44,266 nucleotides of DNA from Acidobacteriota bacterium (lineage in GTDB: Bacteria; Acidobacteriota; Thermoanaerobaculia; Multivoradales; JAGPDF01). The notes under the pieces are model-generated. The model had not been told where the DNA came from, ran no database searches, and was given only the letters and a program-made list of their open reading frames with translations. The stretch is taken from the NCBI GenBank assembly GCA_014584695.1, contig JACTMI010000003.1:1-44266 (forward strand), given 5' to 3'. The position numbers and the translations under genes were made by a program. Of the stretch, positions 1,934-36,082 are shown piece by piece; position 1 is the stretch's first letter, and every line of letters begins with the position of its first letter.

Positions 1934-2407
1934 CTACGGCTGCCGATCGACTGGATCGAGCGGACGCGACGACCAGTGAATGTGGACGATGCGCCACGCG
2001 CCATCGGCACCTCGCTCGAGCACCATGCTCTCGGTTCCGCTCGACGAGACTTCCTTGCCTCTGAACTTCCCGGTCGTCTTCGAGCGACTGAGCACCCAGG
2101 CCACGTCCCCGCTCCCGCCACCCCGACGATCGGTGACCTCGGTCTTCGTCGCCGCGACGTATTCCATGTCGCCCGCCAAATGGTGGCTCGCGTACTCGTC
2201 GCGGGACAGCTCCGCACCGCCGGACTCGAAGATCACGACGGAAGAGTCGAGGACGGCCAGCACCTGGACGCGATCACCGGCCGCGAGCGCGGCATGGAAC
2301 CGCTCCACCACCGAAATGGCTTCGGGCGGCGCCTCGGCGGCATGCGTCACCGCCGCCACCGCAAGGCCCCCGATCAACAAGGTCAGAAGCCGCCCGGCGC
2401 GAATCAC
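1934..2407 (-). CDS. Exported NTF2/SnoaL-like protein
   Basis: A 157-aa protein with an N-terminal signal peptide (hydrophobic LLTLLIGGLAVAAV, then THAAEA). The mature part has the DUF4440/SnoaL-like pattern: an initial helix (VVERFHAALAAGDRVQVLAVLD), a VVIFESGG strand, and a C-terminal strand ending in WRIVHIHWSSR. Such cone-shaped folds bind small ligands or act as enzymes; the ligand here is unknown. The start is a GTG whose last two bases form the TGA of the upstream gene (GTGA overlap), so the two are translationally coupled. Similar exported NTF2-like proteins occur in copper-resistance clusters, which is a contextual argument only. Confidence 0.72.
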   Translation of the reverse strand: MIRAGRLLTLLIGGLAVAAVTHAAEAPPEAISVVERFHAALAAGDRVQVLAVLDSSVVIFESGGAELSRDEYASHHLAGDMEYVAATKTEVTDRRGGGSGDVAWVLSRSKTTGKFRGKEVSSSGTESMVLERGADGAWRIVHIHWSSRPLDPVDRQP

Positions 2408-2736
2408 GGCTTCTTCGCCCCGAGCCGCACCTCGAGCGCCCGATCGGCGCCATCCTCCGTTTCGTACATCACGACGGCCCGCTCGCCGGCCGTGATGTCT
2501 TCGCGCGTCACTGCCGTCTCGCCTCGCAGGTACTTGGTCTCTCCGGAAAGCACAAAGGTCTGGTCCTTGCCTTCCGAGATCGTGAGCATCAAGTGATTCT
2601 CGTGGAGCATCTTCACCGTGCCCATCGCTTCGTGGTGGTGACCCTCGTGGGCAATCAGGACCGCAGGGGCGGCGAGGATCGCCGCCAACGCCATCCATGT
2701 GGCGATGGGCTGCAACTTCGAGAGCATCGTCTTCAC
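2404..2736 (-). CDS. Small periplasmic His-rich DUF5666-like protein
   Basis: A 110-aa exported protein. After the signal peptide (about 30 residues, ending near VLIAHEG) there is a His cluster (EGHHHEAMG). A small beta-barrel-like domain follows, with the repeat G-x-V-x-x-x-x-x-x-H-L-M-L-x-I, resembling DUF5666/CusF-like OB folds. The His/Met-rich start of the mature protein could bind Cu or Ag in the periplasm. Two starts are possible: GTG at 2736, preceded by AAAGGGG, or ATG at 2727; the first is preferred. It overlaps the following gene by 4 bp and lies 26 bp after the cytochrome gene. Family assignment is tentative. Confidence 0.68.
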   Translation of the reverse strand: MKTMLSKLQPIATWMALAAILAAPAVLIAHEGHHHEAMGTVKMLHENHLMLTISEGKDQTFVLSGETKYLRGETAVTREDITAGERAVVMYETEDGADRALEVRLGAKKP

Positions 2737-2762
2737 CGCTTTCCCCTTTCGAAAAGTGACTT

Positions 2763-3386
2763 TCAATGATGATGTCCTTCGTCGGAGACCGATTCTCCGG
2801 CGAGGAACGCGTCGATCTCCCTCTCGTGCTCGACAGCGGCGCGAGAGAGCGTCGGGTTGAGCCGTTCCATCTCTTTCAGGTCTTCGGGCGTGAGGCTGGG
2901 CAATTCGCGAATGAACGCGACGAGATCCCAGCTCTCGGCGTCGTTCGACGGATCGTCGTCGCCGAAACCCGGCATGCCGGTCAGTCGCACGCCGTTCTCG
3001 ATGATCCAGAAGAGCGCGCCGTCGGAAAGTTTCTGCGTGGCTGCAGCCGTCATGTCGGGCGCCCGCGGGTACATTCGCTGCCCGTAGGAGGTCCTCCCCT
3101 TTCCGTCGTTGCCATGGCAGGTGGCGCAATGATCGGCGAAGTGGGCTCGACCCCGGGCGATCGAGTCCGGGTCCGTGGCCGTCGGGGCGCTTCGAGCTCG
3201 GGCGGCTGCCGGGATCAGCAGGTGCCTCGCCGAACGGGCGAGCCGCGTCTCGACCCGGGTAGGCTCCGGCCGCGCCGAGACTCCGCTCCACACAAGGCCA
3301 ATGCCTGCCAGGGTCGCCGCGAATCCGATCGTCGCGAACACGGCGAGAGTCCAACGGCGCACCCCGCCTGGGGTTGAAGTGGCCAT
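2763..3386 (-). CDS. Membrane-anchored class I cytochrome c
   Basis: A 207-aa protein with an N-terminal membrane helix (residues 12-32) and one periplasmic cytochrome c domain. The haem-binding motif is C-A-T-C-H (context FADHCATCHG), with a distal Met ligand probably in GMPGFGDDD. The order CxxCH, then T-S-Y-G-x-R-M-Y-P-x-x-P-D-M, then GxPxF is typical of cytochrome c class I/cytochrome cbb3-type modules. The C-terminus ends in GHHH. The ATG is preceded by AGGAGGAGA. It sits between a membrane protein and the small His-rich protein, so it may act in periplasmic redox of copper, but this is inferred from neighbourhood. Confidence 0.85.
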   Translation of the reverse strand: MATSTPGGVRRWTLAVFATIGFAATLAGIGLVWSGVSARPEPTRVETRLARSARHLLIPAAARARSAPTATDPDSIARGRAHFADHCATCHGNDGKGRTSYGQRMYPRAPDMTAAATQKLSDGALFWIIENGVRLTGMPGFGDDDPSNDAESWDLVAFIRELPSLTPEDLKEMERLNPTLSRAAVEHEREIDAFLAGESVSDEGHHH

Positions 3387-3390
3387 GCGG

Positions 3391-3924
3391 TCAGTCTCCT
3401 CCTGTCTCTGGATACGATTCGCTTCGAGATCCCGAGTCCACTCCTTGGGAGCTTTGTCGACGCTCAGCCGTCGACCGCGGCGCAGCGTCCGCCCGGAGCC
3501 GAACCAGCAGCCAGACCAGGAACGGGACGACGACCCACTGGAGCAAGGGGCTCGCGCCGATTCCCCACAGCGTCGGCATGCTCGGCGCGTAAGACCAATT
3601 CCCCCGAATGCCCGCGTTCCACCACTCGCTCCAGAAGGTGTAGGCAATGCCGAGCGCGACGAAAGCCAGCATGGGTGGCACGCCTCCGGCCACGATCCAG
3701 TCGCGACCGCCGAACAGCAGGGCGGTGCCCCAGAAGCAGGCGAGGAGAATCAGCACGTCACCCAGGGTGCAGTGCAGTCGGGTCCACGTGAGGTACGACA
3801 GCTCCCGGTCGGCGTCGGCGTAGAGCGGCGTCTGGATCGCTTCCCAGGCGAGATGGAGCCCGAAACCCCAGCTCGCCAGTCGAAGCTCCGGAGCCGACGC
3901 CAGGGATCGGAATCGCGTACTCAC
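3391..3924 (-). CDS. Integral membrane protein, copper-cluster associated
   Basis: A 177-aa hydrophobic protein with about four membrane helices (around residues 40-60, 65-90, 110-130). Conserved-looking aromatic and polar patches include GFGLHLAWEAIQTPLY and FWSEWWNAGIRGNWSYAPSM. The family is not recognised beyond a small integral membrane protein seen beside metal-resistance genes. The GTG start overlaps the stop of the preceding gene as GTGA, so translation is coupled to the putative nuclease-fold gene, and the cytochrome c gene follows by 4 bp. The hydrophilic C-terminal tail (about 30 residues, Arg/Ser-rich) should be cytoplasmic or disordered. Confidence 0.7.
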   Translation of the reverse strand: MSTRFRSLASAPELRLASWGFGLHLAWEAIQTPLYADADRELSYLTWTRLHCTLGDVLILLACFWGTALLFGGRDWIVAGGVPPMLAFVALGIAYTFWSEWWNAGIRGNWSYAPSMPTLWGIGASPLLQWVVVPFLVWLLVRLRADAAPRSTAERRQSSQGVDSGSRSESYPETGGD

Positions 3925-4642: not shown

Positions 4643-7117
4643 TCAGACCTTGGCCCGGTGCAGCCGAAGGGCGTTTCCGATCACCGACACCGACGAGAAG
4701 CTCATCGCCGCGGCGGCGAGGATCGGCGAGAGCAGCCAGCCCGTCCACGGGTAGAGCAGGCCCGCCGCGATCGGCACGCCGGCAGCGTTGTAGGCGAAAG
4801 CCCAGAACAGGTTCTGCTTGATGTTGCGCATCGTCGACCGCGACAGGCGCCGCGCCCGGACGATCCCGCGCAGATCGCCCTTGACCAGCGTGACGCCCGC
4901 CGACTCCATCGCCACGTCGGTGCCGGTGCCCATGGCGACGCCGATCTGGGCCTGGGCGAGGGCAGGCGCGTCGTTGATGCCGTCGCCCGCCATTGCCACG
5001 AACCGGCCCTCGGCCTGGAAGCGCTTGACGTGGTCGACCTTCTGGTCGGGCAGAACCTCGGCCGCGACCTCGTCGATGCCGAGCTTTCGCGCCACCGCCT
5101 CCGCCGTCGCGCGACTGTCGCCGGTGAGCATCACGACGCGGATCCCCTCGGCGTGCAGCGCGCGGATCGCCTCGGGCGTGGTCTCCTTGATCGGATCGGC
5201 GACGCCCAAGATGCCGGCCAACCGGCCGTCGACCGCCAGGAACATCACCGTCTGGCCCTCCTTGCGCAGCTTCTCCGCATCGTCGGCGAGGGTCCCGGGA
5301 TCGACTCCGGCCTCGTCCATCATCCGGCGGTTGCCGAGCGCGACGAGCCGACCTGCAACCTTCGCGCGCACGCCCTTGCCCGTCACCGACTCGAAGCCAT
5401 CGGCCGCGGAGATCGAGACGCCGCGCTCCGTCGCGCGGTTGACGATGGCGGCCGCCAGCGGGTGCTCGCTTCCGCGCTCGACGGCCGCGGCGTAACTCAG
5501 CAGCTCGGGCTCGCCGAACCCTTCGGCCGGCTCGAGCGAGACCAGCCGGGGCTTGCCCTCGGTGAGTGTCCCGGTCTTGTCGACCACCAGCGTGTCGACC
5601 TTCCTCAGGTGCTCGATCGCTTCCGCGTTCTTGAACAGGACGCCGATCGAGGCGCCCTTGCCGGTCGCGACCATGATCGACATCGGGGTCGCGAGGCCGA
5701 GCGCGCAAGGGCAGGCGATGATCAGCACGGCGACCGCGTTGATCAGGGCGTGGGCGAGCCTCGGATCGGGGCCGAGCGTCCCCCAGGCCAGAAACGTCAG
5801 TACCGCGATCGCCAAGACGACGAGCACGAACCACCCCGAGATGACGTCGGCGAGCTTCTGGATCGGCGCTCGGCTGCGCTGGGCCTCGGCCACCATCGCG
5901 ACGATACGGGCAAGCAAGGTCTCGGCGCCGACCTTCTCGGCTTGCATCACGAAACCGCCCGTGCCGTTGACCGTGGCGCCGACCACCCGGTCGCCTGCGT
6001 GCTTCTCGACCGGGATCGGCTCACCCGAGACCATCGACTCGTCGATCGAGGTCGCTCCCTCGAGCACGACGCCGTCGACCGGCACCTTCTCGCCCGGACG
6101 CACCCGTAGCCGGTCGCCGGCCTGGACGGTATCGAGCGGTACGTCCTCCTCGCTCCCGTCCTCCTGCAATCGTCGAGCGGTCTTGGGAGCGAGGCCGAGC
6201 AGCTTGCGGATCGCCGCGCTCGTCTCGCCGCGGGCCTTGAGCTCGAGCACCTGGCCGAGCAGGACGAGGGCGGTGATCACCGCCGCCGCCTCGAAGTAGA
6301 CGGCGACCTGTCCACCCTCCTCGCGGAAGGCATCCGGGAAGAGGCCGGGGAACAGTGCCGCTACGAGGCTGTAGGCATAGGCGACGAACACGCCGAGGCC
6401 GATCAACGTGAACATGTTCAGGCTGCGATTGCGCAGCGACGCGACGCCGCGCACGTAGAAGGGCCAAGCCGCCCAGGTGCAGACCGGCGTGGCCAGCAGG
6501 AGCTCTAGCAGCACCCGCCAACGAGCCGGGATCGCGCTCGCGATCGGGCTCCCCGGCAAGAGCAGGTCGCCCATCACCAGGACCAACGTGCCAAGCGCCA
6601 GCGGCACCGAGACCCAGAACCGGCGCCGCATGTCGAGGTACTCTGGATTGGGCCCCTCGTCGGCCGAGATCGTCCGCGGCTCGAGCGCCATGCCACAGAT
6701 CGGACAACTGCCCGGCTCGTCGCGCACGATCTCGGGATGCATCGGGCAGGTCCACTCCGTCTTCGTCTTCGTCGCCGGCGCCGTCGGGGTCGCCCGCTCG
6801 AGCGCCATGCCGCACTTGGGGCAGGCGCCGGGCCGATCGGACTCGACTTCGGGGTGCATCGGGCAGGTCCACTTCTCCGCGGCCGGCGCCGCCGAATCGC
6901 GGGGCGCCGTCGAGCCAGGCGTCGAATAGGTCGCTGGCGAGGCATCGAACTTCTGCTTGCACCCGGAGGAGCAGAAGTGGACCGACCGGCCGCCCCACTC
7001 CGAGTGATGAGGCGTCCGTTCCGGATCGACCTGCATCCCGCAAACCGGATCCTTCACGATCGGCCTCTCGCCGCCGTGATTCTCGCCCTGTCCAGAATCG
7101 TCCCGTTCAGCCATCAT
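4643..7117 (-). CDS. copA: Copper/silver P1B-type ATPase (CopA-like)
   Basis: An 824-aa heavy-metal efflux ATPase that would pump Cu(I)/Ag(I) out of the cytoplasm. In order it has a YHS domain (residues about 20-58, KDPVCGMQV and CSSGCKQKF), two heavy-metal-binding domains (W-T-C-P-M-H-P ... C-x-x-C-G-M at about 83-108 and 121-147), eight membrane helices, the CPC metal-site motif near 468, DKTGTLT near 512 (phosphorylated Asp), SEHPL, and [10 protein letters not shown] near 710. It lacks the usual N-terminal HMA (GMTCxxC) domains, as in SilP/CopA variants that carry YHS and HMBD modules. Two adjacent ATGs follow GAGGGGGAA; the first is used. The next gene begins 8 bases downstream. Confidence 0.96.
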
Positions 7118-7218
7118 TTCCCCCTCTGCTCGCCTACGCCTGCCGAGCTTCGACCAGGCGCAACTTTCCCAGCCCACCGGCCGCCACCCGGATCTCGGGC
7201 GACGGCCGGAGCGCCCGC

Positions 7219-7722
7219 TCAGTGGTGGGCGTCGTGCCCAGTTTCAGCTTGTGACGTCGCGCCCATCATCGGGCATCCGGACATCGACTGCGACATGCCT
7301 TCGATCATCCCGGACCGCATGTGGCCCATCATGTGCTGCATCATCTCCGCGTGCATCGACTCCATCGATTCACGCATCGCACGGCGCTGCGCCACGAGCT
7401 CCGTGACCACCGCGGCCGTGGCGTCGACTTTCTTGCTGCCGCGCGAGTCGTTCATCGACTGAACGAGCGCGTCGAGCTTGGCGTCCATGGCCTTCATCTC
7501 GTCCATCATCGCCTGGCGCTTCGCCATCATCGCCTTGCAGTCGTCCATCATCGACCCGCCAGGCTTCGACTCGCCCGACATGGCCCCGCCCATCATCGCG
7601 CCGCCCATGGCGTGGCCTTCCGTCTTGGGCTCTTGCTGCTGAGGTGTCGACGTCTGCGCCCAGAGCAGGCCGGCGCCGACGAGCAGGGCCGAGGTCGCGA
7701 GTGCAACGATTCGAGATTTCAT
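7219..7722 (-). CDS. Met-rich exported protein, putative copper binder
   Basis: A 167-aa exported protein with a signal peptide ([20 protein letters not shown], cleavage near WAQ). The mature sequence is dominated by Met and His: [49 protein letters not shown], and a GHDAHH end. The middle looks like a long amphipathic helix or coiled coil. Met- and His-rich periplasmic proteins chelate Cu(I)/Ag(I) (compare PcoE, SilE and Met-rich CopC/PcoA segments), so a metal sponge or chaperone role fits, though no named family is certain. The start is supported by AAAGGAG upstream. It lies just upstream of copA in the same orientation and just downstream of a strong hairpin. Confidence 0.8.
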
Positions 7723-7829: not shown

Positions 7830-8087
7830 TCACTGCTTCACCCACCGGTTGTAGAGGCCGGCGAGCGCCGCCGCGCTGGCGGCGGCGCCCACGAACCAGA
7901 AGACGAGGCCGGCGACGAAGCCGACGCCGGTGAGGGTCGGCGGCGACGCGACGGCGACGTGGAAGAGCTCCCGCGTCGCCCAGACCGCCGCTTCCGGCGC
8001 CAGGACGACGAAGAGCGAGCAGAGTGCGAAGAGCGTCGCCGCGACGGTTCCGCTGGCGAGGGCGAGGGAGCGGGCTTCGAGTTTCAT
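7830..8087 (-). CDS. Small membrane protein, DUF5676-like
   Basis: An 85-aa protein with two predicted membrane helices (about residues 8-33 and 52-78) and a short C-terminal YNRWVKQ tail. The pattern (ALASGTVAATLFALCSLFVVL, a T-x-x-L-F-H linker, GFVAGLVFWFVGA, then YNRW) resembles DUF5676 family proteins, which are common in heavy-metal-resistance islands and have no known function. The ATG is chosen so that a charged MKLEAR start precedes the first helix; the ribosome site is weak. It lies 26 bp after the His-rich 88-aa gene and probably shares its promoter. Confidence 0.72.
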   Translation of the reverse strand: MKLEARSLALASGTVAATLFALCSLFVVLAPEAAVWATRELFHVAVASPPTLTGVGFVAGLVFWFVGAAASAAALAGLYNRWVKQ

Positions 8088-8113: not shown

Positions 8114-8380
8114 TCAGCAGCAGCCGTGGCGGTGCCGGTGGCCCGCGGAACGAGAGTGCTCGTGGGCTGGGGCCATCGCAGGTCCGACGCCCGAGCCGGT
8201 GGTGTGCGCGGCATGCGAGAGATCCGTGTCGCGCCGGGGCGTGTCGCCGGTGGCCAACAGCGTCCGACCAGGATCGATCGTCGTCGTTCGGCGGCGACCG
8301 AACCACATCAGGGCGGCGCCGACGACCACCAGGGCCACTGTCCAGGCCCAACCGTTTCCGAGAATCTCCGTCCAGTTCAT
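8114..8380 (-). CDS. Small His-rich membrane protein
   Basis: An 88-aa protein with one N-terminal membrane helix (WAWTVALVVVGAALMWFG, residues about 10-29) and a hydrophilic tail rich in His and ending in GHRHRHGCC. The tail has several possible metal ligands (HAAH, HEH, HRHRH, CC), so a metal-binding single-pass protein is likely, facing either side of the membrane. GAAGGAGGACGACG gives a strong ribosome site before the ATG. It is the first gene after the ECF-type promoter at 8458-8483, with an untranslated leader of about 70 bases. No family was recognised. Confidence 0.72.
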   Translation of the reverse strand: MNWTEILGNGWAWTVALVVVGAALMWFGRRRTTTIDPGRTLLATGDTPRRDTDLSHAAHTTGSGVGPAMAPAHEHSRSAGHRHRHGCC

Positions 8381-8457
8381 CGTCGTCCTCCTTCTCGCCC
8401 GTCGATCCTTGCTGGGAGAGTGTGCTGGGCGTTGTCACCCTCTCCGTTCACTTGTGC

Positions 8458-8483
8458 AGACGGATCGGTCCGCTCGGCCTTAC
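8458..8483 (-). promoter_or_regulatory. ECF-type promoter copy 1 (GTAAGG-N15-CGTCT)
   Basis: On the minus strand GTAAGGCC and GATCCGTCTGCACA are separated exactly as in the second copy at 11783-11808: -35-like GTAAGG at 8478-8483, a 15-bp spacer, and -10-like CGTCT at 8458-8462. A CGTC-type -10 and a short spacer are usual for ECF sigma promoters. It lies directly upstream of the His-rich membrane protein gene. The cognate sigma is inferred to be the CorE-like factor at 11805-12383. Confidence 0.62.
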
Positions 8484-8528
8484 ACAGTGGGTTATGGGGG
8501 TCCTGCCTCGGCAGCGCTCGCGGGCTCC

Positions 8529-9973: not shown

Positions 9974-10110
9974 CGGGCCTCCTCGAGTGGGCTGATCCCT
10001 GCTTCCGGGAGAACGAGCCCGCGTAGAAAGAAGGTCATCTCGCGAAAGGACGTGGCTTCGAAGGCGCCAACGATGTCGAGCGACTCCCAGGGCTTCCGCT
10101 TCACCGTCAT
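9970..10110 (-). CDS. 46-aa coupled small protein
   Basis: A 46-residue protein starting MTVKRKPWESLDIVGAFEATS and ending GISPLEEAR. Both its ends are 4-bp overlaps (ATGA with the upstream membrane-protein gene, GTGA with the LOG gene), which is the main reason to call it. It is charged with a short hydrophobic middle (MTFFLRGLVL) and has no recognisable domain. It may be a regulatory or coupling peptide. Confidence 0.55.
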   Translation of the reverse strand: MTVKRKPWESLDIVGAFEATSFREMTFFLRGLVLPEAGISPLEEAR

Positions 10111-10364
10111 CCTCCCCAGCGGCGGTGGAAGGCGTTGTGAATCGGCACGAAGATCAGCCCGAAGTAGGCACCGTAGAGGAAGCTCTCCACGAGCCCGACG
10201 AGGAACGACGTCGGGGACAGCCACTGGAATCCGGGCAGGACCGACTCGAGGAAGCGGTGCATGTGGAGCGCCTCCGGGGTCACCAGGCCCCAGACCACGC
10301 AGACGACGAAGCTCACCGCGGACGTGGTGGCGAGAGACCAGGTCCAGACTTTGAGTCGAAGCAT
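10107..10364 (-). CDS. Small two-helix membrane protein (DUF5676-like)
   Basis: An 85-aa membrane protein with two helices (about residues 8-28 and 50-76). Notable motifs are V-C-V-V-W-G-L-V-T-P, a Met/His linker (EALHMHRFLESVLPGFQWLS), and V-E-S-F-L-Y-G-A-Y-F-G-L-I-F-V-P-I-H-N ending FHRRWGG. Such proteins recur next to copper-efflux genes. I place it near DUF5676 but not firmly. The His/Met linker between helices could touch metal. It is 21 bp downstream of the Cys-rich 68-aa gene, preceded by AAGGAGG. Confidence 0.75.
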   Translation of the reverse strand: MLRLKVWTWSLATTSAVSFVVCVVWGLVTPEALHMHRFLESVLPGFQWLSPTSFLVGLVESFLYGAYFGLIFVPIHNAFHRRWGG

Positions 10365-10385: not shown

Positions 10386-10592
10386 TCAGCGAGCGAAATG
10401 CGACGCCGTGCGGCGAGGCCCGCGCCGACGGGCGTCCTTTCCTTCGCAGCTCCCATCACAACTCCCGCAGGCGCCGCTGCACGAGCGGGCGAGGCCCGGA
10501 TTGTCCGGATCGCGCCGAGCGATCCAGATCTGGAGCCCTCCCCAGGCCGCCGCGAGCAGGGCGACCCCCAGAACGGCGAGGAGGGAGGTCAC
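10386..10592 (-). CDS. Cys-rich single-pass membrane protein
   Basis: A 68-aa protein with an N-terminal membrane helix (residues 3-24) and a Cys cluster, C-S-G-A-C-G-S-C-D-G-S-C, at about residues 38-49. A basic tail (KDARRRGPRRTASHF) follows. The layout recalls FeoB-associated Cys-rich membrane proteins, which bind metal next to a transporter. The GTG start overlaps the preceding stop as GTGA. The positive-inside rule puts the Cys cluster in the cytoplasm. A metal-chaperone role is inferred. Confidence 0.68.
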   Translation of the reverse strand: MTSLLAVLGVALLAAAWGGLQIWIARRDPDNPGLARSCSGACGSCDGSCEGKDARRRGPRRTASHFAR

Positions 10593-10807
10593 GGCTCGCC
10601 CCACTTTCCGGACGCTCCGGAGCCCTCGTGCCCGGCGCCCGGGCCGTGGCCTTCGTGATCGTCCTCGGGGTGCGAGTTGCGGCCATGGCCCTGCCCGTGT
10701 CCTTGCCCGTGACCATGGCCGTGACCGTGGCCGTGACCGAAGAGATGCATGCCGATGCAAGCCAGAGCCACGGCGAGGAAGAACCAGTTCTCGGTCAAGA
10801 AGCTCAT
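10589..10807 (-). CDS. His/Gly-rich small membrane protein, DUF2933-like
   Basis: A 72-aa protein. A single helix (WFFLAVALACIGMHLF) is followed by a long run of His-Gly repeats (residues about 25-44) and a Gly/His/acidic tail. DUF2933 proteins have the same plan (EN-W-F-x-hydrophobic helix-GMHLFGH) and occur in metal-resistance loci. The His-Gly repeats should bind several metal ions. The start ATG overlaps the stop of the methyltransferase gene (ATGA). Confidence 0.75.
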   Translation of the reverse strand: MSFLTENWFFLAVALACIGMHLFGHGHGHGHGHGQGHGQGHGRNSHPEDDHEGHGPGAGHEGSGASGKWGEP

Positions 10808-11469
10808 CGCGAATCTCCCTTCTCGAGCGCGGCCCGCGGGCCGGACAGGCTCGGCACGAAGGCCGGCGTCCGGGCCCGGTAGCGCTCGTAGTCGGCTCCG
10901 AAGGTGGCGAGCGCGTCGCGCTCCTCGCGTCGCGCGAGGCGCCAATACGTGGCGACCAGGATCGGGAACATGACCAGTGTGACGAAAGTCGGCCACTGCA
11001 ACAGGAAGCCGACCATGATCAGCGTAAAGGCCGCGTACTGGGGGTGACGGATGCGCGCGTAAGGCCCGGTCGCGGCCAACGACCCGTCGCGCTGCGCCTG
11101 GTAGAGCACGCGCCATGCCGAGGCGAGCAGATAGAAGCCGCCGAAGATGAACACCGAGCTCAGCAAGTGGAGCGGCCCGAAGTGAGCATCCGATCTCTCG
11201 CCGAGCAGCGTGCTCCACAGGTGCCCCGACTGGTGCGAGAAGAGGTCGACGCCCGGGAAGCGTTTGGTCAGCCACCCGGAGAGCAGGTAGATCGTCAACG
11301 GAAAGCCGTACATCTCGGTGAACAGCGCGACCAGGAAGGCGGAGAACATCCCCAGCGTTCGCCAGTCGGTGCGTGTCTTCGGCCGGAAGTAGGCGAAAGC
11401 GAAGGCGATGAAGATCCCCGCGTTGATCACCACCAGCGGCCAGTAGCCGTACTCGTAATGGCTGTTCAT
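10804..11469 (-). CDS. ICMT-like membrane methyltransferase family protein
   Basis: A 221-aa membrane protein of the isoprenylcysteine carboxyl methyltransferase-like family. About five helices are seen. The C-terminal signature is G-P-Y-A-R-I-R-H-P-Q-Y-A-A-F-T-L near residues 134-149, followed by R-R-E-E-R-D and F-G-x-D-Y-x-x-Y. In characterised ICMTs this region binds S-adenosylmethionine. Bacterial members are frequent in copper islands and their substrate is unknown. The ATG follows AGGAGG with a 9-base spacer. It is the second gene of the run that begins at the ECF-type promoter 11783-11808. Confidence 0.88.
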   Translation of the reverse strand: MNSHYEYGYWPLVVINAGIFIAFAFAYFRPKTRTDWRTLGMFSAFLVALFTEMYGFPLTIYLLSGWLTKRFPGVDLFSHQSGHLWSTLLGERSDAHFGPLHLLSSVFIFGGFYLLASAWRVLYQAQRDGSLAATGPYARIRHPQYAAFTLIMVGFLLQWPTFVTLVMFPILVATYWRLARREERDALATFGADYERYRARTPAFVPSLSGPRAALEKGDSR

Positions 11470-11514: not shown

Positions 11515-11757
11515 TCAGTGGCAGTGTCTCGCGCCCGGAGGATGCCTCGTGCTCTTCTCGCCGGAAGGCAGCCCGCCGCAGCAGCTGCCGCGGCCTTCGC
11601 TGTCCAGCTCACCGTCGTCCGTTCCGTCGTCACCCTCGGCCAGGTGGCGAACCGGGCCACGGTGGAGCTGCCGTTCGTCCCACTCCCCGGCACCGAGCTC
11701 GAACAGAGTCACTTCGTCGAGCTCTCGAGCAGTCTCTCGATGTGTCGCTGAGTTCAT
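11515..11757 (-). CDS. 80-aa soluble protein with Cys/His tail
   Basis: An 80-residue acidic protein with no signal peptide. The N-terminal half (ATHRETARELDEVTLFELGAGEWDERQLHRG) is probably helical. The tail holds C-C and H-C-H residues (GSCCGGLPS, ARHCH) able to bind metal. No family was recognised. The ATG has AAAGGAG 8 bases upstream, and the ECF-type promoter's -10 element ends only 25 bp before the ATG, so this is the first gene of that transcript. Confidence 0.6.
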   Translation of the reverse strand: MNSATHRETARELDEVTLFELGAGEWDERQLHRGPVRHLAEGDDGTDDGELDSEGRGSCCGGLPSGEKSTRHPPGARHCH

Positions 11758-11782
11758 GTCGTCGTCTCCTTTCTGCCTGTGC

Positions 11783-11808
11783 AGACGGATCCGGGCCGAG
11801 GGCCTTAC
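11783..11808 (-). promoter_or_regulatory. ECF-type promoter copy 2, overlapping sigma stop codon
   Basis: On the minus strand GTAAGG at 11803-11808, a 15-bp spacer and CGTCT at 11783-11787, with GTAAGGCC and GATCCGTCTGCACA identical to the copy at 8458-8483. The TAA inside GTAAGG is the stop codon of the sigma-factor gene, so the promoter lies at the 3-prime end of that gene and faces the 80-aa gene. Transcription would give a leader of about 20 bases that carries the ribosome site. Confidence 0.65.
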
Positions 11809-12383
11809 GACGGCTGCCGTGCCTGCTTCGCCGCGGGCTCGCAGGAGCAGTCCAGGCAGCCGTGTTCGGCGCAGGTGCGGCAAGAGCGCTGCATCCGCTC
11901 CCGCAGCGCCCGCCGGGCGCGGTGCAGGCGGACCATGGCGTTGTTGGGCGTGATCGCTTTCTGCATCGCGAAGTCGACCGGGCGCATGCCTTCGAGGTCG
12001 ACTCGTCGCAGGATGGCCTCGTGCTCGGGCTTCAGCTTCGGCAGCAGAGGCACGAAGCAGTGGCAGAGTTGGTTTCCGATCTCCGGTTCCGGTTCCACCG
12101 CGTCGGCCAGCTCGCGGGCGAGCGCCTCTTCGCCTCGGCGCTCGGCGGCGCGCTCCCGCCAATGGTCCGAGAGCTCGTTGCGGAGCAGGCGGTAGAACCA
12201 GGCCACCGCCCGCTCCTCGTCACGAATCTGGCCCGCCCGCTCGATCCCCTTGACGAACGCCTCCTGGAGGATCTCCTCCGCCTCGTCACGGCTCCCGGTG
12301 CGGTTCTCGAGGAACGCGAGAAAGCGGCGGTGGCTCTCGACCAGCGCCAGGACACCGGACGACTTCGCCTCGTCCGCCTTCAT
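11805..12383 (-). CDS. ECF sigma factor with Cys-rich tail, CorE-like
   Basis: A 192-aa sigma-70-family factor. Sigma-2 covers about residues 17-85 (R-D-E-A-E-E-I-L-Q-E-A-F, AWFYRLLRNELSDHWRE) and sigma-4 about 112-163 (LKPEHEAILRRVDLEGM, NNAMVRLHRARRALRERM). A C-terminal Cys-rich domain has C168, C171, C176, C179 and C181 (C-x2-C-x4-C-x2-C-x-C). A further pair, C107-x-C109, lies in the linker. This layout is that of CorE-type (ECF44) factors, in which copper bound by the tail switches the sigma on or off without an anti-sigma factor. No anti-sigma gene is seen. GGGAGG precedes the ATG. It lies inside the copper region. Confidence 0.88.
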   Translation of the reverse strand: MKADEAKSSGVLALVESHRRFLAFLENRTGSRDEAEEILQEAFVKGIERAGQIRDEERAVAWFYRLLRNELSDHWRERAAERRGEEALARELADAVEPEPEIGNQLCHCFVPLLPKLKPEHEAILRRVDLEGMRPVDFAMQKAITPNNAMVRLHRARRALRERMQRSCRTCAEHGCLDCSCEPAAKQARQPS

Positions 12384-12409: not shown

Positions 12410-12889
12410 TCACCCCGCGACTCTCTCCACTTTCACGCCGCAGCCGGACATCGCTCTTCCGTAGTACGGGTTGTGCGTCGCTCCGTCGCCCTTCGCCTGC
12501 AGCCAGTAGGCCTTGACCATCGGGCAGAAGTAGAGCTGCGCCGAATCGACGCCGGTGACCTTCAGGTAAGCGGGCATCGCCTTCGACAGCCCCTTGAACT
12601 GCTCGCGCAGCGTCCCGAGATCGCTGCCGTTCATTCTGCGCGCGGCGTCGACCAGGACTTGCGATGCCTCGCTCTCTTCGAGAGAGCAGTCGCAGGGCTT
12701 CACGATGTCCGCGATCTGGCCGGCCGCGTCGACGACGCCCTCGACCGAGTCTCCGGCCAGCGCCGCCTGGATCTTCTGGTACTGCGTCAGCACCCGTGTC
12801 CCGAGCTCCTTGGCCTCGATGGCCCGCGCGGATGTCGCGGCGAGCAGTGTCAAGGCCACCGTCAGGCCGATGATGGAAAGCTGCTTCAT
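12410..12889 (-). CDS. Exported DUF3347 protein
   Basis: A 159-aa exported protein with a signal peptide (MKQLSIIGLTVALTLLAATSARA). The mature part is helical and ends with the DUF3347 signature: L-Y-F-C-P-M-V-K-A-Y-W-L-Q at about residues 119-131, then N-P-Y-Y-G-R-A-M-S-G-C-G. DUF3347 domains are found alone or fused to CusB-type adaptors, and their Cys/Met residues are thought to handle copper. A CDC motif lies upstream (VKPCDCS). The ATG follows AAAGGAG. It sits between another exported Cys protein and the sigma factor. Confidence 0.85.
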   Translation of the reverse strand: MKQLSIIGLTVALTLLAATSARAIEAKELGTRVLTQYQKIQAALAGDSVEGVVDAAGQIADIVKPCDCSLEESEASQVLVDAARRMNGSDLGTLREQFKGLSKAMPAYLKVTGVDSAQLYFCPMVKAYWLQAKGDGATHNPYYGRAMSGCGVKVERVAG

Positions 12890-13407: not shown

Positions 13408-13770
13408 TCAGGGCGCGGCCTGACTCGAGCGAGCCAGGGCGGCGGCCCCTTCCTCGTGGTTGCGGATCCGGATCGCCCGCTCGACTTCGGTGACGAATAC
13501 GATGCCGTCCCCTCGCAGGCCGGTCTGGGCAGCCGAGACCAGGGCGTCGACCAGGCGATCGACCTGCGGATCCGCACAGACCACCTCCACCTTCGCGATC
13601 GCCTGCGCCCGGCTCATCTCGCTCTCCGACATCGTGAACATGTTGGGCGCGTAGCCGTAGCCGACGCCGTGAACTCGGGATACGGTGATGCCGGGCGCTT
13701 GCGCGGCTTCCAGCGCGCGAACGATCTCCTCCAGTTTGTGGGTTCTCACGAACGCCTTGAGCAGCTTCAT
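13408..13770 (-). CDS. PII-like protein coupled to CusA
   Basis: A 120-aa protein of the GlnB/PII superfamily. It begins MKLLKAFVRTHKLEEIVRALE and contains the B-loop-like T-G-L-R-G-D-G-I-V-F-V near residues 86-96. The T-loop region (HGVGYGYAPNMFTMSES) is unlike GlnB/GlnK and lacks the usual uridylylated Tyr context. Its start overlaps the stop of cusA (ATGA). The PII-NG group is known for being linked to CusA/CzcA-type metal RND pumps, which matches. It probably senses metal or nucleotide state to tune the pump; a nitrogen role is unlikely. Confidence 0.85.
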   Translation of the reverse strand: MKLLKAFVRTHKLEEIVRALEAAQAPGITVSRVHGVGYGYAPNMFTMSESEMSRAQAIAKVEVVCADPQVDRLVDALVSAAQTGLRGDGIVFVTEVERAIRIRNHEEGAAALARSSQAAP

Positions 13771-16700
13771 GACGGCTCTCCTTCCGGGAGCGCGGCCGTC
13801 GGCCCGCCGTTCCCTGCGGGGCCGGGGAAGAGCGGCGAGCGCCGCAATCCGATCGACCGCCAGATGAAGAAAATCGAGGGATAGACGACCAGCTCGCCGA
13901 CGAACGAGCTGAAGACGCCGCCGATCATCGGTGCCGCGATCCGTCGCATGACGTCCGCGCCCGTGCCGGTGGCCCAGAGAATCGGCACCAGCGAGACGAG
14001 GATCGCCGCCACCGTCATCATCTTCGGGCGAATTCGCTGGACCGCACCGTGTTCGACCGCCGACGCGAGATCGGCGAAGGTGGCCATCTTGCCTTGCTGC
14101 TTCCACCGCTCGTACGCGATGTCGAGGTAGAGCAGCATGACCACGCCGGTCTCCGCGTCGAGGCCGGCGAGCGCGATCAGGCCTACCCACACCGCCACCG
14201 ACCAGTTGTAGCCGAGCGCCCAGAGCAGCCAGATGGCGCCGACCAGCGAGAACGGCACCGCCAGCAGCACGATCGCGGTCTTCACGATCGACTTCGTGTT
14301 GAGGTAGAGGATGAGGAAGATGAGGAAGAGCGTGATCGGCACGATAAGCATCAGTCGCGCCTTCGCCCTCTGCATATACTCGTACTGGCCCGACCAGAAG
14401 ATCGTGTACCCGGCGGGCAGCTCCACCCGCTGGGCGACCTCGGAGCGGGCGCGCTCGACCCATCCCCCGACATCCGAGGTCCTCAAGTCGACGAAGACCC
14501 AGGCATTGGGACGCGCGTTCTCGGACTTGATGCCAGGTGGCCCTTGGTGCACCTCGACCTCCGCGAGCTGCCCGAGCGGAACCTGGAGACCGGAGGATGT
14601 CGCCACCAGGATCTCTCGCAGGCGCTCCGGGTCGTCGCGCAGCTCGCGCGGGTAGCGGAGGTTGATCGGGTAGCGCTCGAGCCCCTCGACCGTCCAGGAG
14701 ACGTTCATGCCGCCGATCGCCGACTGAATGACGTCCTGGACGTCGCCGACCGTCAGGCCGAAGCGGGCCGCGGCGTCGCGATCGATCTTGAAGTCGAAGT
14801 AGCTCCCGCCCATGACGCGCTCCGCGTATGCCGAGAGCGTGTCCGGGAGACCCTTGACGACCGCCTCGACCTCCTTGCCGAGCCGTTCGAGCGTCTGGAG
14901 GTCGGGGCCTGCGATCTTGACGCCGACCGGCGTCTTGATGCCGGTCGACAGCATGTCGATGCGGGTCTTGATCGGCATCGTCCAGGCGTTGGTCAGGCCC
15001 GGAAAGCGCACCGCGCGGTCCATCTCCTCGACCAGCTTCTCCTTGGTCATTCCAGGACGCCACTCGGAGGGGTCCTTGAGCCGGATCGTGGTCTCGATCA
15101 TCGACAGCGGCGCCGGGTCGGTCGCGGTCTCGGCCCGCCCGATCTTGCCGAAGACCGAATCGACTTCGGGGAAGGTGCGCAAGATCTTGTCGGTCTGTTG
15201 AAGGATCTCCTTGGCCTTCGTGCTCGAGATCCCAGGGAACGTGGTCGGCATGTAGAGAATGTCGCCCTCCCAGAGCGGCGGCATGAACTCGCTGCCGATC
15301 CTCGCCAGGGGGACTGCGATCGAGGCCATGAGCACCAGCGCGCCGGCGATCACGACCCAGCGCGCCCGGAGCGCGAGCTCGAGCACCGGCGCGTAGATCC
15401 GCCGCAGGAGCCGGGAGACCGGGTGCTTCTCCTCGCTGTGGATGTTGCCGCGCACGAACCAGTACATGAGCACCGGGATCACCGTCACCGCCAGGATCGA
15501 GGAGGCGGCGAGCGCGTAGGTCTTGGTGAAGGCGAGCGGCTTGAACAGCCGCCCCTCCTGCTCCTCGAGCGTGAACACGGGAAGGAACGACACCGTGATC
15601 ACGAGGAGGGTGAAGAAGAGCGTCGGCCCCACCTCCTGCGCCGAACGCAGGATGATCTCGAAGTGCGAGCGCTTGCCCCGCCACTCCTCGTAGTGCTTGT
15701 GGGCGTTCTCGACCATGATGATCGCGGCGTCGACCAAGACGCCGATCGAGATCGCGATGCCGCCGAGCGACATGATGTTGGCGCCCAGCCCCTGCATCCG
15801 CATGACGATGAACGCGACGAGGATCGACACCGGGATCGAGATGATGGCGACCAGCGCCGAGCGGAAGTGGAAGAGGAAGAGGATGCAGACCAGCGCCACG
15901 ATGATCGACTCCTCGATCAGCGTGTGAGTCAGCGTCTTGACCGCTCGACGGATGAGCGCCGTGCGGTCGTAGGCGGTCGAGATCTCGATGTCGTCCGGCA
16001 ACCCGGCCTTGAGCTCCGCCAGCTTCTGCTTGACGCGATCGATGGTCTCCAGCGTGTCGGCTCCGGCTCGCACGACGATCACGCCGCCGACCGTCTCGCC
16101 CTCACCGTTCCACTCCGCGATGCCTCGGCGGATCTCCGGCCCGATGGTCACGTTGGCGACGTCGCGGAGGAGCAACGGCGTGCCCCCGGGGCCCGTGCCG
16201 AGGACCACCTTTTCGAGGTCCTGGACGTCGTGCACGTACCCGAGGCCCCGGACCATGAACTCCTTCTCCGCCATCTCGACGACCCGACCGCCGACGTCGT
16301 TGTTCGAGCGCTGGATCGCCGCCTTGATCTTCTGCAGCGAAACGCCGTAGGCGCGCAGCTTCACCGGGTCGACCTCGATCTGGTATTGGCGCACGAAGCC
16401 ACCGATCGAAGCCACCTCGGAGACCCCGTCGACGGCGGTCAGCGCGTACTTCAGGTACCAGTCCTGGTAGCTGCGCAGCTCGGCGAGAGATCGCTGCGGG
16501 GAATTGAGCACGTACATGAACGCCCAGCCGACACCCGTGGCGTCCGGGCCGAGCTGCGGAGAGACACCCTGCGGTAGCTGCCGCGACAGCCCCGACAGGT
16601 ATTCGAGTACGCGCGAACGCGCCCAGTAGAGGTCGGTACCGTCCTCGAAAATGACGTAGACAAAGGAATAGCCGAAAAACGAGTAGCCCCGAACGACCTT

Positions 16701-16937
16701 GGCGAACGGAACAGCGAGCATTTTGGTCGTGATCGGGTAGGTGACCTGATCCTCGACCAGCCGGGGTGCCTGGCCGGGGTACTCCGTATAGACGATGACC
16801 TGGACGTCGCTGAGATCCGGAATCGCGTCGAGCCGCATGCCGCGGATCGCCCAGACGCCTCCCAGCGTGGCGAAGAGCAGCCCGATCACCACCAGGAAGC
16901 GATTGCGCAGCGACCACTCGATGAGCCGATTGAGCAT
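13767..16937 (-). CDS. cusA: CusA-type RND heavy-metal efflux pump
   Basis: A 1056-aa inner-membrane RND proton/metal antiporter of the HME (CusA/SilA) group. It takes Cu(I)/Ag(I) from the periplasm or cytoplasm and passes it to the outer-membrane channel through CusB. It starts MLNRLIEWSLRNRF and has twelve helices in the usual 1+5/1+5 plan with two large periplasmic loops. The TM4 proton-relay Asp is in G-I-A-I-S-I-G-V-L-V-D-A. The length is normal for the family. GAGGAG lies 6 bases before the ATG; a longer frame upstream is not needed. The cusB stop is 10 bp upstream and the PII-like gene starts in its stop codon. Confidence 0.96.
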   Translation of the reverse strand: MLNRLIEWSLRNRFLVVIGLLFATLGGVWAIRGMRLDAIPDLSDVQVIVYTEYPGQAPRLVEDQVTYPITTKMLAVPFAKVVRGYSFFGYSFVYVIFEDGTDLYWARSRVLEYLSGLSRQLPQGVSPQLGPDATGVGWAFMYVLNSPQRSLAELRSYQDWYLKYALTAVDGVSEVASIGGFVRQYQIEVDPVKLRAYGVSLQKIKAAIQRSNNDVGGRVVEMAEKEFMVRGLGYVHDVQDLEKVVLGTGPGGTPLLLRDVANVTIGPEIRRGIAEWNGEGETVGGVIVVRAGADTLETIDRVKQKLAELKAGLPDDIEISTAYDRTALIRRAVKTLTHTLIEESIIVALVCILFLFHFRSALVAIISIPVSILVAFIVMRMQGLGANIMSLGGIAISIGVLVDAAIIMVENAHKHYEEWRGKRSHFEIILRSAQEVGPTLFFTLLVITVSFLPVFTLEEQEGRLFKPLAFTKTYALAASSILAVTVIPVLMYWFVRGNIHSEEKHPVSRLLRRIYAPVLELALRARWVVIAGALVLMASIAVPLARIGSEFMPPLWEGDILYMPTTFPGISSTKAKEILQQTDKILRTFPEVDSVFGKIGRAETATDPAPLSMIETTIRLKDPSEWRPGMTKEKLVEEMDRAVRFPGLTNAWTMPIKTRIDMLSTGIKTPVGVKIAGPDLQTLERLGKEVEAVVKGLPDTLSAYAERVMGGSYFDFKIDRDAAARFGLTVGDVQDVIQSAIGGMNVSWTVEGLERYPINLRYPRELRDDPERLREILVATSSGLQVPLGQLAEVEVHQGPPGIKSENARPNAWVFVDLRTSDVGGWVERARSEVAQRVELPAGYTIFWSGQYEYMQRAKARLMLIVPITLFLIFLILYLNTKSIVKTAIVLLAVPFSLVGAIWLLWALGYNWSVAVWVGLIALAGLDAETGVVMLLYLDIAYERWKQQGKMATFADLASAVEHGAVQRIRPKMMTVAAILVSLVPILWATGTGADVMRRIAAPMIGGVFSSFVGELVVYPSIFFIWRSIGLRRSPLFPGPAGNGGPTAALPEGEPS

Positions 16938-16947
16938 GGCCGGCTCC

Positions 16948-18492
16948 TCAGTGATTCGCGTGCCCGGCCGAATCGGTCGGGGGCGTTGCGTTGGTAGATT
17001 CACCCTGGCGAGATGCCAGGAGCTTCTGGACCGCTTCGCGGAGGTTCGATTCCGAGTCGATCAGGAACTGCGCCGAGGTCACGACCTTCTCTCCGGCCTC
17101 GAGCCCGGACAGCACCTCGATCTCTCTCTCTCCAGCGACTCCCAGGCGAACCTCCCGGACGGAGAACCGACCGCCCCCTGTCGCCACGACGACGACGTTG
17201 CGCTCGCCGGTGCGGAGCACGGCAAGGGACGGCACGGTCACCACGTCGCGAGCAACCACGGGTGCGAAACGGACGGTCGCGTACATGCCTGCCCGTAGCC
17301 GGCCATCGCGGTTCGGCACTTCGACGCGCAGCCCGACGGTCCGGGTCTTCTCCTGCACCTGCGGCTCGACGAAGCGCACGCGTCCGTGGAACGTCTCGCC
17401 CGGTAAGTAGGAGAGCGTGATTTCGGCCTCGTTGCCAGGCCGCAACCACGAAAGCTGGACCTCGAAGACCTCGACCGAGAGCCACAGTGTCGAGAGGTCG
17501 GCGAGATGAAAAAGCTCCATCCCCGGCCGGACCGACATCCCCTCGAGGCCGGCCATGCGCATCATGACCACGCCGCTCGACGGAGCGCTGACCGTCAACG
17601 TTCGCGTGGGCGCACCGCTCGCCTCCAGCTTCTCGACCTGGGCCGCGCTGATGTCCCAGAAGGAGAGCCGGCGCCGGGCCGCGTCGACCAACGCCTCCGC
17701 GCGCTGCCTCGCGCTCTCCGGCGCGCCTTCGAGCTTGCGCGCGTAGGCGATCGCCGAGACCAGCTCCTCCTGGGTCTGGACGAGCTCCGGGGAGTAGATC
17801 TCGAAGAGGGGCTGCCCCTTCCGCACCGGCTCGCCGATGTAGTTGACGTAGACCTTCTCGACGAAGCCCGGGAACTTGGTGGTGACCGAGACCATCTTTT
17901 CCTGGTCGTAGTCGAGGTAGCCCACGGTGCGGATCTCGCGCGAGAGGTCCCGGCGCTCGACCTCGGCGGTCACCACGTTCATGTTCTGGACTACCGCCGG
18001 ATCGATTCGAATCGTCGAGCCTTCGGCTGCCGCGTCGGTCTCCTCGGCGTACACCGGGGCGTAGTCCATCCCCATCGAGTCCTTCATCGGGACGGGCGAA
18101 GTCACGGTCGGGTCCATCGGGTTGCGATAGAAGAGGACTTTGCGCTCTCCCGTCGACTCCGCGGCGGCCTCCTGGCCTCCCGTTCCCGCGTCGAGGGGCA
18201 CCAAGTTCATGCCGCAGATCGGGCACGTCCCCGGGTGGTCCTGGATGACCTGGGGGTGCATGCCGCAGGTCCAGAGCTGCTTCGGGGCTTCGGGCGAAAC
18301 CAGGTCCGGAGCGTGGTGCCAACGGCCCACAATGCCGTGCAGCCAGCTATCGACCGGATGAAGACCCAGCGGGTCGGCAATCAGCAGGACGGCGAGCAGA
18401 GCCCCGCCGACGAGCCAGCCGAGGTTGGCGACCCAACGGCGCGAGCGGCGCGGCTTCGGAGTGAGGGTATCGTCTTGCAGTTCGTCGTTCAT
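16948..18492 (-). CDS. cusB: CusB-type periplasmic adaptor with heavy-metal-binding domain
   Basis: A 514-aa membrane-fusion protein linking CusA to the outer-membrane channel. It has an N-terminal membrane anchor (residues 22-45). A heavy-metal-binding domain follows (L-W-T-C-G-M-H-P-Q-V ... C-P-I-C-G-M-N-L, about 73-98), and then the typical CusB Y-R-N-P-M-D-P ... S-M-G-M-D-Y-A-P segment that carries the metal-binding Met residues. Beta-barrel, lipoyl and long hairpin domains fill the rest. The C-terminus is His/Asn-rich. The ATG overlaps the stop of the TolC-like gene. Length and order are normal for the family. Confidence 0.95.
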   Translation of the reverse strand: MNDELQDDTLTPKPRRSRRWVANLGWLVGGALLAVLLIADPLGLHPVDSWLHGIVGRWHHAPDLVSPEAPKQLWTCGMHPQVIQDHPGTCPICGMNLVPLDAGTGGQEAAAESTGERKVLFYRNPMDPTVTSPVPMKDSMGMDYAPVYAEETDAAAEGSTIRIDPAVVQNMNVVTAEVERRDLSREIRTVGYLDYDQEKMVSVTTKFPGFVEKVYVNYIGEPVRKGQPLFEIYSPELVQTQEELVSAIAYARKLEGAPESARQRAEALVDAARRRLSFWDISAAQVEKLEASGAPTRTLTVSAPSSGVVMMRMAGLEGMSVRPGMELFHLADLSTLWLSVEVFEVQLSWLRPGNEAEITLSYLPGETFHGRVRFVEPQVQEKTRTVGLRVEVPNRDGRLRAGMYATVRFAPVVARDVVTVPSLAVLRTGERNVVVVATGGGRFSVREVRLGVAGEREIEVLSGLEAGEKVVTSAQFLIDSESNLREAVQKLLASRQGESTNATPPTDSAGHANH

Positions 18493-19874
18493 CGGTCGAC
18501 TCCAACGGAAAGGGAGGCCAGGGGGGCGCCGAGCGCTCCATCGAGGCGGGCTCGTGCGATCAGGGAATCGGCCCGCACCCGGGCGGTACCGACACGGACT
18601 TCGAGAAGCACACGCTCGGCATCGAGCAGGTCGAGGGCGCCGGCCGAGCCGGCAGCGTAGGCGGCCTCGGCGGAGCGAAGTGACTCCTCGGCTTGGGTCG
18701 ACAGCAGGCCGGTGAACAACGCGAGCTGCTCGTCCAGCAGCGGCAGACGAGCCGCTAGCTCGCCGAGGCCCTGGTCGATGCCGGCCACGGTGGAGCGCAG
18801 CTCTTCCTCCGCCGCCGTCTCGCGCGCGGTGGCTTCGACCACGCCGGACTCAAGCCGCTCCCGCCAGACCGGGAGGTTGACCCCGAGCGTGACGCCGAGG
18901 ATGTCGTCGCCGTTCCCCGGCGGCGGCATGGCGCGGCCCGGGGCGTCCTGCCGCTTGCCGACCAGCGTATAGCCGAGCCCCACCGTCAGGTCAGGCCGGA
19001 ACTCCTTCTGCGCCAGCTCTCCGCCCACCCCGGCCGCGGCGATCATCGCTCGCGCCCGGGCGACTTCGGGGCGGTTCTCGACCGCCGCGGCTCGCAGCGC
19101 TGCCAGGTCGAGTGTTGGAAGCGGAGGCGGAGCGGCCGGGAGCGCGATGCCGGGCGGCACTCCGCCTGACGGCCGGTCGCGCAGGGCGTCGAGGGCACTG
19201 ACGAGGGCCGCACGGCGATTCGCGAGGTCGAGAAGTCGATTGTCGTCGCGCGTGATCTCGGCTTGGAGCTTGATCACCGCCTGTTCGAGGCCGACGCCCG
19301 AGGCGTACCGGGCGCGCGCCAGCTCTTCGTAGTGGATGAGCGTGTCGCGATCCTCGCGCAGGATCTCCTCCTGCGCGGAAAGAAAGGCGAGCTCGTAGGC
19401 CAGGCGTCGCGTTTCGGTGACGAGTGCCAGGCGCTTGGCCTCGACCGCCGCCCGTGCGGCCTCGGCGTCGAGCAGGGCCTGCCGCTCCTTGAGAGCGAGC
19501 TTGCCGAACCAGGGGAAGCGTTGCGAAATCGCCGCCGCCGCCTCCTGCGGCCCGACGCGGGTCTCGGGGGTCAGCGCGAAGGCGGTCAGCGAGGCCATCG
19601 GGTCGGGCAATGCCCGCACCTGGGGCGTCCGCGCGGCGCTCGCCGACGCGAGCGCGCGGAGTCGAGCGAGATCCGGATTTCGCTCGAGGACCTCGAAGAC
19701 GAGCGCGGCGTGCGCCGGCTCGAGCGACGCGATCAGCCGATCGGCAGCGGGCGGCGAGGGCTCCGGGCTCGACGTGGCGGGCAACGCCTCCTGCGCGGAG
19801 AGCGGACCCAGACCGAGCGAGGCGCCGGCGAGTACGGCGAAGACGGCAAGCCTGGATGATTCAGCAAGTGTCAC
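18489..19874 (-). CDS. TolC/CusC-type outer-membrane efflux protein
   Basis: A 461-aa outer-membrane channel of the OEP family. After the signal peptide (to about residue 27, LSAQEA) two OEP repeats can be traced from their long helices: one near residues 65-250 (including QEEILREDRDTLIHYEELARARYASGV-type heptads) and one near 260-455 (ARAMIAAAGVGGELAQKEFRPDL, AAYAAGSAGALDLLDAERVLLE). It would form the outer duct of the Cus tripartite pump. The start is a GTG with GGAGGAG close upstream. It overlaps cusB by 4 bp, so stoichiometric translation is likely. Confidence 0.92.
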   Translation of the reverse strand: MTLAESSRLAVFAVLAGASLGLGPLSAQEALPATSSPEPSPPAADRLIASLEPAHAALVFEVLERNPDLARLRALASASAARTPQVRALPDPMASLTAFALTPETRVGPQEAAAAISQRFPWFGKLALKERQALLDAEAARAAVEAKRLALVTETRRLAYELAFLSAQEEILREDRDTLIHYEELARARYASGVGLEQAVIKLQAEITRDDNRLLDLANRRAALVSALDALRDRPSGGVPPGIALPAAPPPLPTLDLAALRAAAVENRPEVARARAMIAAAGVGGELAQKEFRPDLTVGLGYTLVGKRQDAPGRAMPPPGNGDDILGVTLGVNLPVWRERLESGVVEATARETAAEEELRSTVAGIDQGLGELAARLPLLDEQLALFTGLLSTQAEESLRSAEAAYAAGSAGALDLLDAERVLLEVRVGTARVRADSLIARARLDGALGAPLASLSVGVDR

Positions 19875-25965: not shown

Positions 25966-25971
25966 CGCGGT

Positions 25972-26382: not shown

Positions 26383-26429
26383 GGCTCGCAACGTACAACA
26401 GCTGTTGAGTTCAAGTCAACAACTGTTGT
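26383..26429 (-). promoter_or_regulatory. trbK promoter with paired TCAAC-N4-GTTGA operators
   Basis: Minus-strand -35-like TTGACT at 26414-26419 and, 17 bp on, a weak -10 at 26391-26396 (GTACGT). Two 14-bp dyads, at 26395-26408 and 26416-26429, have centres 21 bp apart; the core CAACAGCTGTTG at 26396-26407 is a perfect palindrome. The layout matches the trbB promoter base for base up to the ATG, with 8 bases between the -10 element and the ATG. This implies leaderless mRNA and repression by one factor bound to adjacent helical faces. Confidence 0.66.
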
Positions 26430-30622: not shown

Positions 30623-30653
30623 GTTCCGATCGAGAGGTGGGCGACGTAGGGCC

Positions 30654-35601: not shown

Positions 35602-35675
35602 TTTCGTGCGGCGCGCCCGCTCGCCCCGGCGCTCGAGTCTTCAAACCGCTACAGGCATCTCAATCAGGGAGAACG

Positions 35676-35701: not shown

Positions 35702-35728
35702 TTCCGCCGAGAGTCGCCTTATCTAGTG

Positions 35729-36067: not shown

Positions 36068-36082
36068 CATGCCCTCCTTGGC

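Follow-up and report, generated by a model that had tools for sequence, protein, structure and literature searches.

A CorE-type, metal-gated ECF sigma factor most probably drives a local copper regulon from two promoters on a conjugative element represented by the window, the term used here for the whole 44,266-nucleotide stretch that was analysed, which is an entire contig. Because the sigma gene adjoins the only two copies of the motif in its genome, and because relatives keep that motif beside copper-detoxification genes, the sigma factor and its two sites very probably form a copper switch that is portable and of the type known from CorE. The sigma gene and the codons of its two cysteine motifs are located as follows:

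11805-12383, minus strand: CorE-like ECF sigma factor of 192 aa (TIGR02937, Pfam Sigma70_r2, linker CxC, Cys-rich tail)
11841-11882, minus strand: codons of the tail C168-x2-C171-x4-C176-x2-C179-x-C181 (CRTCAEHGCLDCSC), from the translation; CorE-like spacing
12057-12065, minus strand: codons of the linker C107-x-C109, from the translation; invariant in alignment A1

The best general model for the protein was TIGR02937 (sigma70-ECF; 50.6 bits against a cut-off of 42.9). Sigma70_r2 of Pfam was matched above its cut-off and Sigma70_r4_2 weakly, below it, while SigZ models also matched with scores well below theirs. Together with an AlphaFold model, these profile matches describe the ECF architecture of sigma2 and sigma4 only: the two appear as confident helical domains (overall pTM 0.45), with the linker (96-106) and the tail (178-192) at pLDDT <50. 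The seven cysteines given by the initial annotation (107, 109, 168, 171, 176, 179 and 181) were all found in the translation, and both linker cysteines are invariant across 35 aligned homologues (alignment A1), most of which were fetched with peptide seeds containing parts of these Cys motifs. No anti-sigma domain was detected with Pfam and NCBIfam in the proteins neighbouring the sigma factor. The proposal of a CorE-type factor working without an anti-sigma thus stands, given the CorE-identical cysteine spacing, the linker CxC, the lack of an anti-sigma nearby and the copper genes on both sides; ECF44, the group named in that proposal, is an old name since merged into ECF238. These sequence features support the assignment of the protein as a putative, not previously described member of the CorE kind.

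To our knowledge, experimental work on CorE-like sigma factors has so far been confined to two of them. CorE itself (MXAN_3426, Myxococcus xanthus), for which activation by metal and the parts played by individual cysteines were demonstrated, carries tail cysteines at 181, 184, 189, 192, 194 and 206 (PMC3107203). Its four invariant tail cysteines are matched at identical spacing by C168, C171, C179 and C181 of the window sigma, and C176 is the equivalent of C189. The two proteins share sigma2, sigma4, the linker CxC and the tail C-x2-C-x4-C-x2-C-x-C, and likewise a setting with no adjacent anti-sigma, copper efflux neighbours and a P1B ATPase as likely target. They differ in that the window sigma lacks the sixth cysteine, C206 (all six CorE cysteines are present at CorE numbering in the Myxococcaceae homologues L156 and L161), and lies on a conjugative element, unlike CorE; moreover, the CorE gene is partly under the control of CorE itself, and a site of that sort was not found at the window sigma operon. 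CorE2 of M. xanthus has the same architecture as the window sigma. OrbS of Burkholderia cenocepacia is also an ECF sigma factor with an on-board metal-binding Cys tail, but its cysteine spacing is different and Fe(II) inhibits it instead of activating it (PMC9023288).

Two predicted promoters precede genes that follow the sigma factor:

8456-8484, minus strand: predicted promoter P1, TGTAAGG-N15-CGTCTGC; exact motif copy, upstream of the DUF5676/CopA genes
11781-11809, minus strand: predicted promoter P2, -35 (C)GTAAGG, N15, -10 CGTCTGC; motif copy with one mismatch

Their core sites, GTAAGGCCGAGCGGACCGATCCGTCT at 8458-8483 near the P1 genes and GTAAGGCCCTCGGCCCGGATCCGTCT at 11783-11808 at the sigma end, are both present on the minus strand where the initial annotation had placed them, and each is directly continued by GCACA. 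The identical 15-bp spacer asserted for the pair is correct when counted between GTAAGG and CGTCT; the longer shared blocks are 9 bp apart. The overlap of one site with the sigma stop codon is likewise real, the TAA within the P2 -35 box being that stop. From the P2 -10 element to the next ATG, which is preceded by AAAGGAG, there are 26 nt, a distance that would be fitting for a leader of about 20 nt; P1 lies 78 nt ahead of an 88-aa small protein gene. An explanation of the P2 region by RNA structure was rejected (folding z = -1.2).

When the whole 4.35-Mb genome was scanned with the 29-mer TGTAAGG-N15-CGTCWGC at up to one mismatch, only P1 (exact) and P2 (one mismatch) were recovered, 3.3 kb apart and beside the sigma gene. 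Two mismatches admitted 16 further matches, approximately the level of the reversed-pattern control (12+6), and a slightly looser spacer range added a single place with an 18-bp spacer. No third site was found upstream of the cus/sigma operon at up to one mismatch, so autoregulation of the sigma factor is not supported. The regulon was proposed to be self-contained; for sigma expression it is not, since the motif is missing upstream of the cus operon from which the sigma gene would be expressed.

All genes from 19874 down to 4643 lie on the minus strand, and those ahead of P2 run in the order TolC-like, CusB-like, CusA-type pump, PII-like, secreted protein, DUF3347-like and sigma. The genes of this copper block are:

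18489-19874, minus strand: TolC/CusC-like outer-membrane efflux protein (Pfam OEP)
16948-18492, minus strand: CusB-like adaptor (NCBIfam)
13767-17003, minus strand: CusA/CzcA heavy-metal RND pump (TIGR00914, 1162 bits)
12410-12889, minus strand: DUF3347-like exported protein, immediately upstream of sigma (Pfam, just under cut-off)
11515-11757, minus strand: 80-aa protein with GSCCGG, first gene after P2 (no Pfam match)
10804-11469, minus strand: ICMT/PEMT-like membrane methyltransferase (Pfam)
10589-10816, minus strand: 75-aa His-rich small membrane protein (ORF; no Pfam match)
10386-10595, minus strand: 69-aa Cys-containing small membrane protein (FeoB_associated-like, below cut-off)
10107-10364, minus strand: DUF5676 2TM protein, P2 side (Pfam)
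8114-8380, minus strand: 88-aa small membrane protein, first gene after P1 (ORF)
7830-8087, minus strand: DUF5676 2TM protein, P1 side (Pfam)
7219-7722, minus strand: Met/His-rich exported protein (ORF; no Pfam match above cut-off)
4643-7177, minus strand: copper-type P1B ATPase (CopA) with YHS and two HMBD domains (Pfam; CPC, YN...P and MxxSS motifs)

The P2-side DUF5676 gene is followed by genes for a LOG-family protein and then a DUF2238-like protein; we infer the extents of the P1 and P2 transcripts or operons. Both sites had been described as facing runs of small metal-protein genes. Small genes do follow each of them, and the operon behind the 8458 site ends in a full-size copper P-type ATPase, which that description did not cover. 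A gene for a PII-like signalling protein (13408-13770) comes directly after the CusA pump gene. Beyond CopA, the stretch 2404-3647 contains frames that resemble a cytochrome c-like protein and, in addition, a His-rich exported protein (MLSKLQPIATWMALAAILAAPAVLIAHEGHHHEAMG...); they may extend the copper block.

In the mechanism proposed here, the sigma factor would be expressed as the last gene product of the cus efflux operon, and cytoplasmic Cu(II) would be bound by the five tail cysteines, probably together with C107-x-C109 of the linker. Metal binding would reorient the sigma2 and sigma4 domains and let the sigma factor join RNA polymerase, the resulting holoenzyme recognising -35 TGTAAGG and -10 CGTC, 15 bp apart, at P2 and P1. 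P2 would then turn on the small metal-related membrane proteins and the methyltransferase, and P1 the DUF5676-CopA export genes. Metal gating by tail and linker is presumed by analogy with CorE, and copper as the ligand, induction by copper, binding of the sigma factor and transcription starts at P1 and P2 are predictions of the same scheme.

The motif recurs beside homologues of the sigma factor. With peptide seeds containing the tail motif, 55 homologue loci were obtained from a species collection, most of them from Acidobacteriota, Myxococcota, Planctomycetota and Gemmatimonadota; because of these seeds, the perfect cysteine conservation in the loci is partly a matter of selection. The whole protein served as query in the window's class and in Myxococcaceae, where tail variants such as CATHGCLDC, CASHGCLDC and CAAHGCLDC were obtained. 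With only TGTAA...CGT[CG] fixed and every spacer from 10 to 25 counted within 1 kb of sigma, spacer 17 (the window's N15 as measured from GTAAGG) gave 41 near matches distributed over 40 of the 58 sigma loci, while the counts at the other spacers stayed between 0 and 7. Loci that had no part in the definition of the motif (Myxococcaceae genomes and plasmids) contributed 25 near matches at spacer 17 and at most four at any other. Beyond the first set, TGTAA-N17-CGT[CG] was seen again in 40-odd loci, among them those of CorE2-type Myxococcus genes and of plasmid-borne sigmas from the published CorE set, the family form being TGTAA[T/G/C]G-N15-CGTC[A/T][G/T]C. The sites are situated just past the sigma stop, divergently 34-135 nt before sigma, or upstream of sigma itself, and overlap with the stop codon is seen in the window and in L001, L003, L029, L154 and L158. 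The scan of related genomes suggested by the initial annotation has accordingly found the motif at fixed spacing beside homologues, with copper genes downstream, and this recurrence in several phyla, along with genome uniqueness, strongly supports the view that the sigma factor has its own promoter pair.

Within the class to which the window belongs, 149 genomes were covered, and a sigma homologue was present in 16. The exact family motif occurred in nine of these 16 (it was not found in the other seven) versus 8 of the 133 sigma-negative genomes (Fisher p = 2.4e-6); the reversed motif bore no association with sigma presence (p = 1.0). In one sigma-negative genome from the same genus as the window, a copy of the motif precedes an ORF starting MNPNETQQIEIVVQRGYHPN, which looks like a cupredoxin as judged by eye on a truncated contig. 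A second CorE-type sigma (L153) was noted in the Archangium MAG that also holds L029, with motif copies 9 nt after its stop and 0.7 kb and 5.5 kb away.

By Pfam, the first genes after the sites include those for P1B ATPases with HMBD/YHS domains (L001, L003, L009, L012, L031 and L032), HMA-domain proteins (L006 and L027), a cupredoxin (L006) and an SMR protein (L010), and at five loci it is the sigma gene itself that follows the site. Proteins of 43-68 aa that hold 10-15 cysteines and match nothing in Pfam are encoded behind several divergent sites, and Cys-rich ORFs of 26 and 32 aa follow two sites ahead of the sigma gene. As a class, these ORFs of 26-68 aa with 7-15 cysteines and no Pfam match lie divergent from sigma in L005, L008, L015, L016, L017, L018, L041, L044 and L049, and ahead of it in L007 and L033; they are candidate bacterial metallothioneins.

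The same pairing of sigma factor and promoters might respond to a metal other than copper, be it zinc or cadmium (as for CorE2), silver or another thiophilic metal, or to heavy metals in general. This is rather improbable, although the close relative CorE2 answers cadmium and zinc (PMC9023288), CorE is itself weakly induced by both, and CorE2-type (Cys-Cys) homologues nest inside one tree with the relatives of the window sigma. The adjacent Cys-Cys pair that sets the Cd/Zn response (C173-C174 in CorE2) is not present in the window tail, which reads C171-A172 instead, and C176, the Cys189 equivalent marking copper-linked members, is retained. Copper is favoured as the metal on these two grounds, and the immediate neighbours, CusA/CusB and a copper-type P1B ATPase, agree with what is plausibly a copper regulon.

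That the sites serve a different regulator, such as another ECF factor or a CusR-like response regulator, with the window sigma acting elsewhere, is very unlikely. About a dozen other sigma-like genes exist in the genome (E <= 0.001), and the copper genes of M. xanthus also answer a second copper-dependent regulator; yet the motif tracks this particular sigma family across phyla with fixed spacing and sits where the sigma gene itself ends or begins, and motif and sigma are associated within the class. It is scarcely credible that the pair arose by chance or duplication with no promoter function. The two copies do have more in common than the family consensus (GATCCGTCTGCACA), possibly through local duplication, but dinucleotide shuffles of the window yielded even one such match in 0 of 100 cases, and genome-wide uniqueness also speaks against this reading, which the cross-phylum conservation at spacer 17 already contradicts.

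The -35 element varies within the family. The published M. xanthus CorE -35 motif is built around AAC, which the window GTAAGG does not contain; some relatives have TGTAACG or TGTAACC. CorE2-type genes of Myxococcus relatives mostly carry TGTAAGA-N15-CGTCAGC 9 nt after the stop. Two plasmid CorE-group sigmas from Alphaproteobacteria, that of Roseobacter litoralis (pRLO149_83) and that of the Phenylobacterium zucineum HLK1 plasmid, both from strains in the 2011 CorE alignment, are about 36-42% identical to the window sigma and show the -35 variants TGTAACG and TGTAATG. The R. litoralis plasmid follows the two-site plan of the window, with one site 18 nt after sigma and a second about 3.5 kb further away; the latter is immediately followed by a small Cys-rich ORF, then an EF-hand gene, DUF5676 and CopA. 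On the protein side, residue 154, in the recognition helix, corresponds through the motif R-x-[FH]-R-A-R to F175 in sigmaE and to H174 in SigW, both of which touch the -35 element (PMC6713349). H/F at this residue goes with G/T as the -35 base (Fisher p = 1e-7 in raw counts, which contain only three independent tree contrasts), and the covariation is kept as a hint, the independent pairs being too few.

It is conceivable, if on balance slightly doubtful, that CorE-type sigmas in at least six phyla share a near-invariant promoter, TGTAA[T/G]G-N15-CGTC[A/T][G/T]C, kept no more than a few hundred bases from the sigma gene and, in some lineages, incorporating the sigma stop codon, which drives ATPases, chaperones and undescribed tiny metallothionein-like proteins. 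The promoter rule across phyla, the stop-codon overlap and the tiny Cys-rich targets may be new to the specialist. If the rule were true, the AAC-based M. xanthus motif would need revision, and each sigma factor would travel with its promoter as a portable copper switch. The rule would also allow the regulons of the remaining CorE-like sigmas to be read from sequence, give ready reporters for how the Cys tail gates a sigma factor, and single out the small Cys-rich proteins as probable metallothioneins of bacteria not described before.

In the window, the complete unit is carried by a conjugative element, the conjugation genes of which were recognised as:

25144-38800, minus strand: conjugation block (Pfam: TrbL, TrbE, VirB11-like ATPase, TraG)
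25144-25965, minus strand: TrbL (Pfam)
31451-33910, minus strand: TrbE (Pfam)
34562-35566, minus strand: VirB11-like ATPase (Pfam)
36638-38800, minus strand: TraG coupling protein (Pfam)

No relaxase was identified on the contig, and no overlap between its ends was found that would mark it as circular. Between 20572 and 44178, trb/VirB-type conjugation genes are accompanied by genes for ParA, ParB/KorB, SSB and ArdC, by virtue of which the contig is taken as all or part of a conjugative element, in keeping with the mobility first ascribed to the regulon. Among 35 plasmids with a sigma homologue, 16 were typed as conjugative. Genes for a CrcB-like protein (a putative fluoride channel) and a DUF190 protein, at 35729-36463, sit in cargo-like fashion between the VirB11-like ATPase and TraG.
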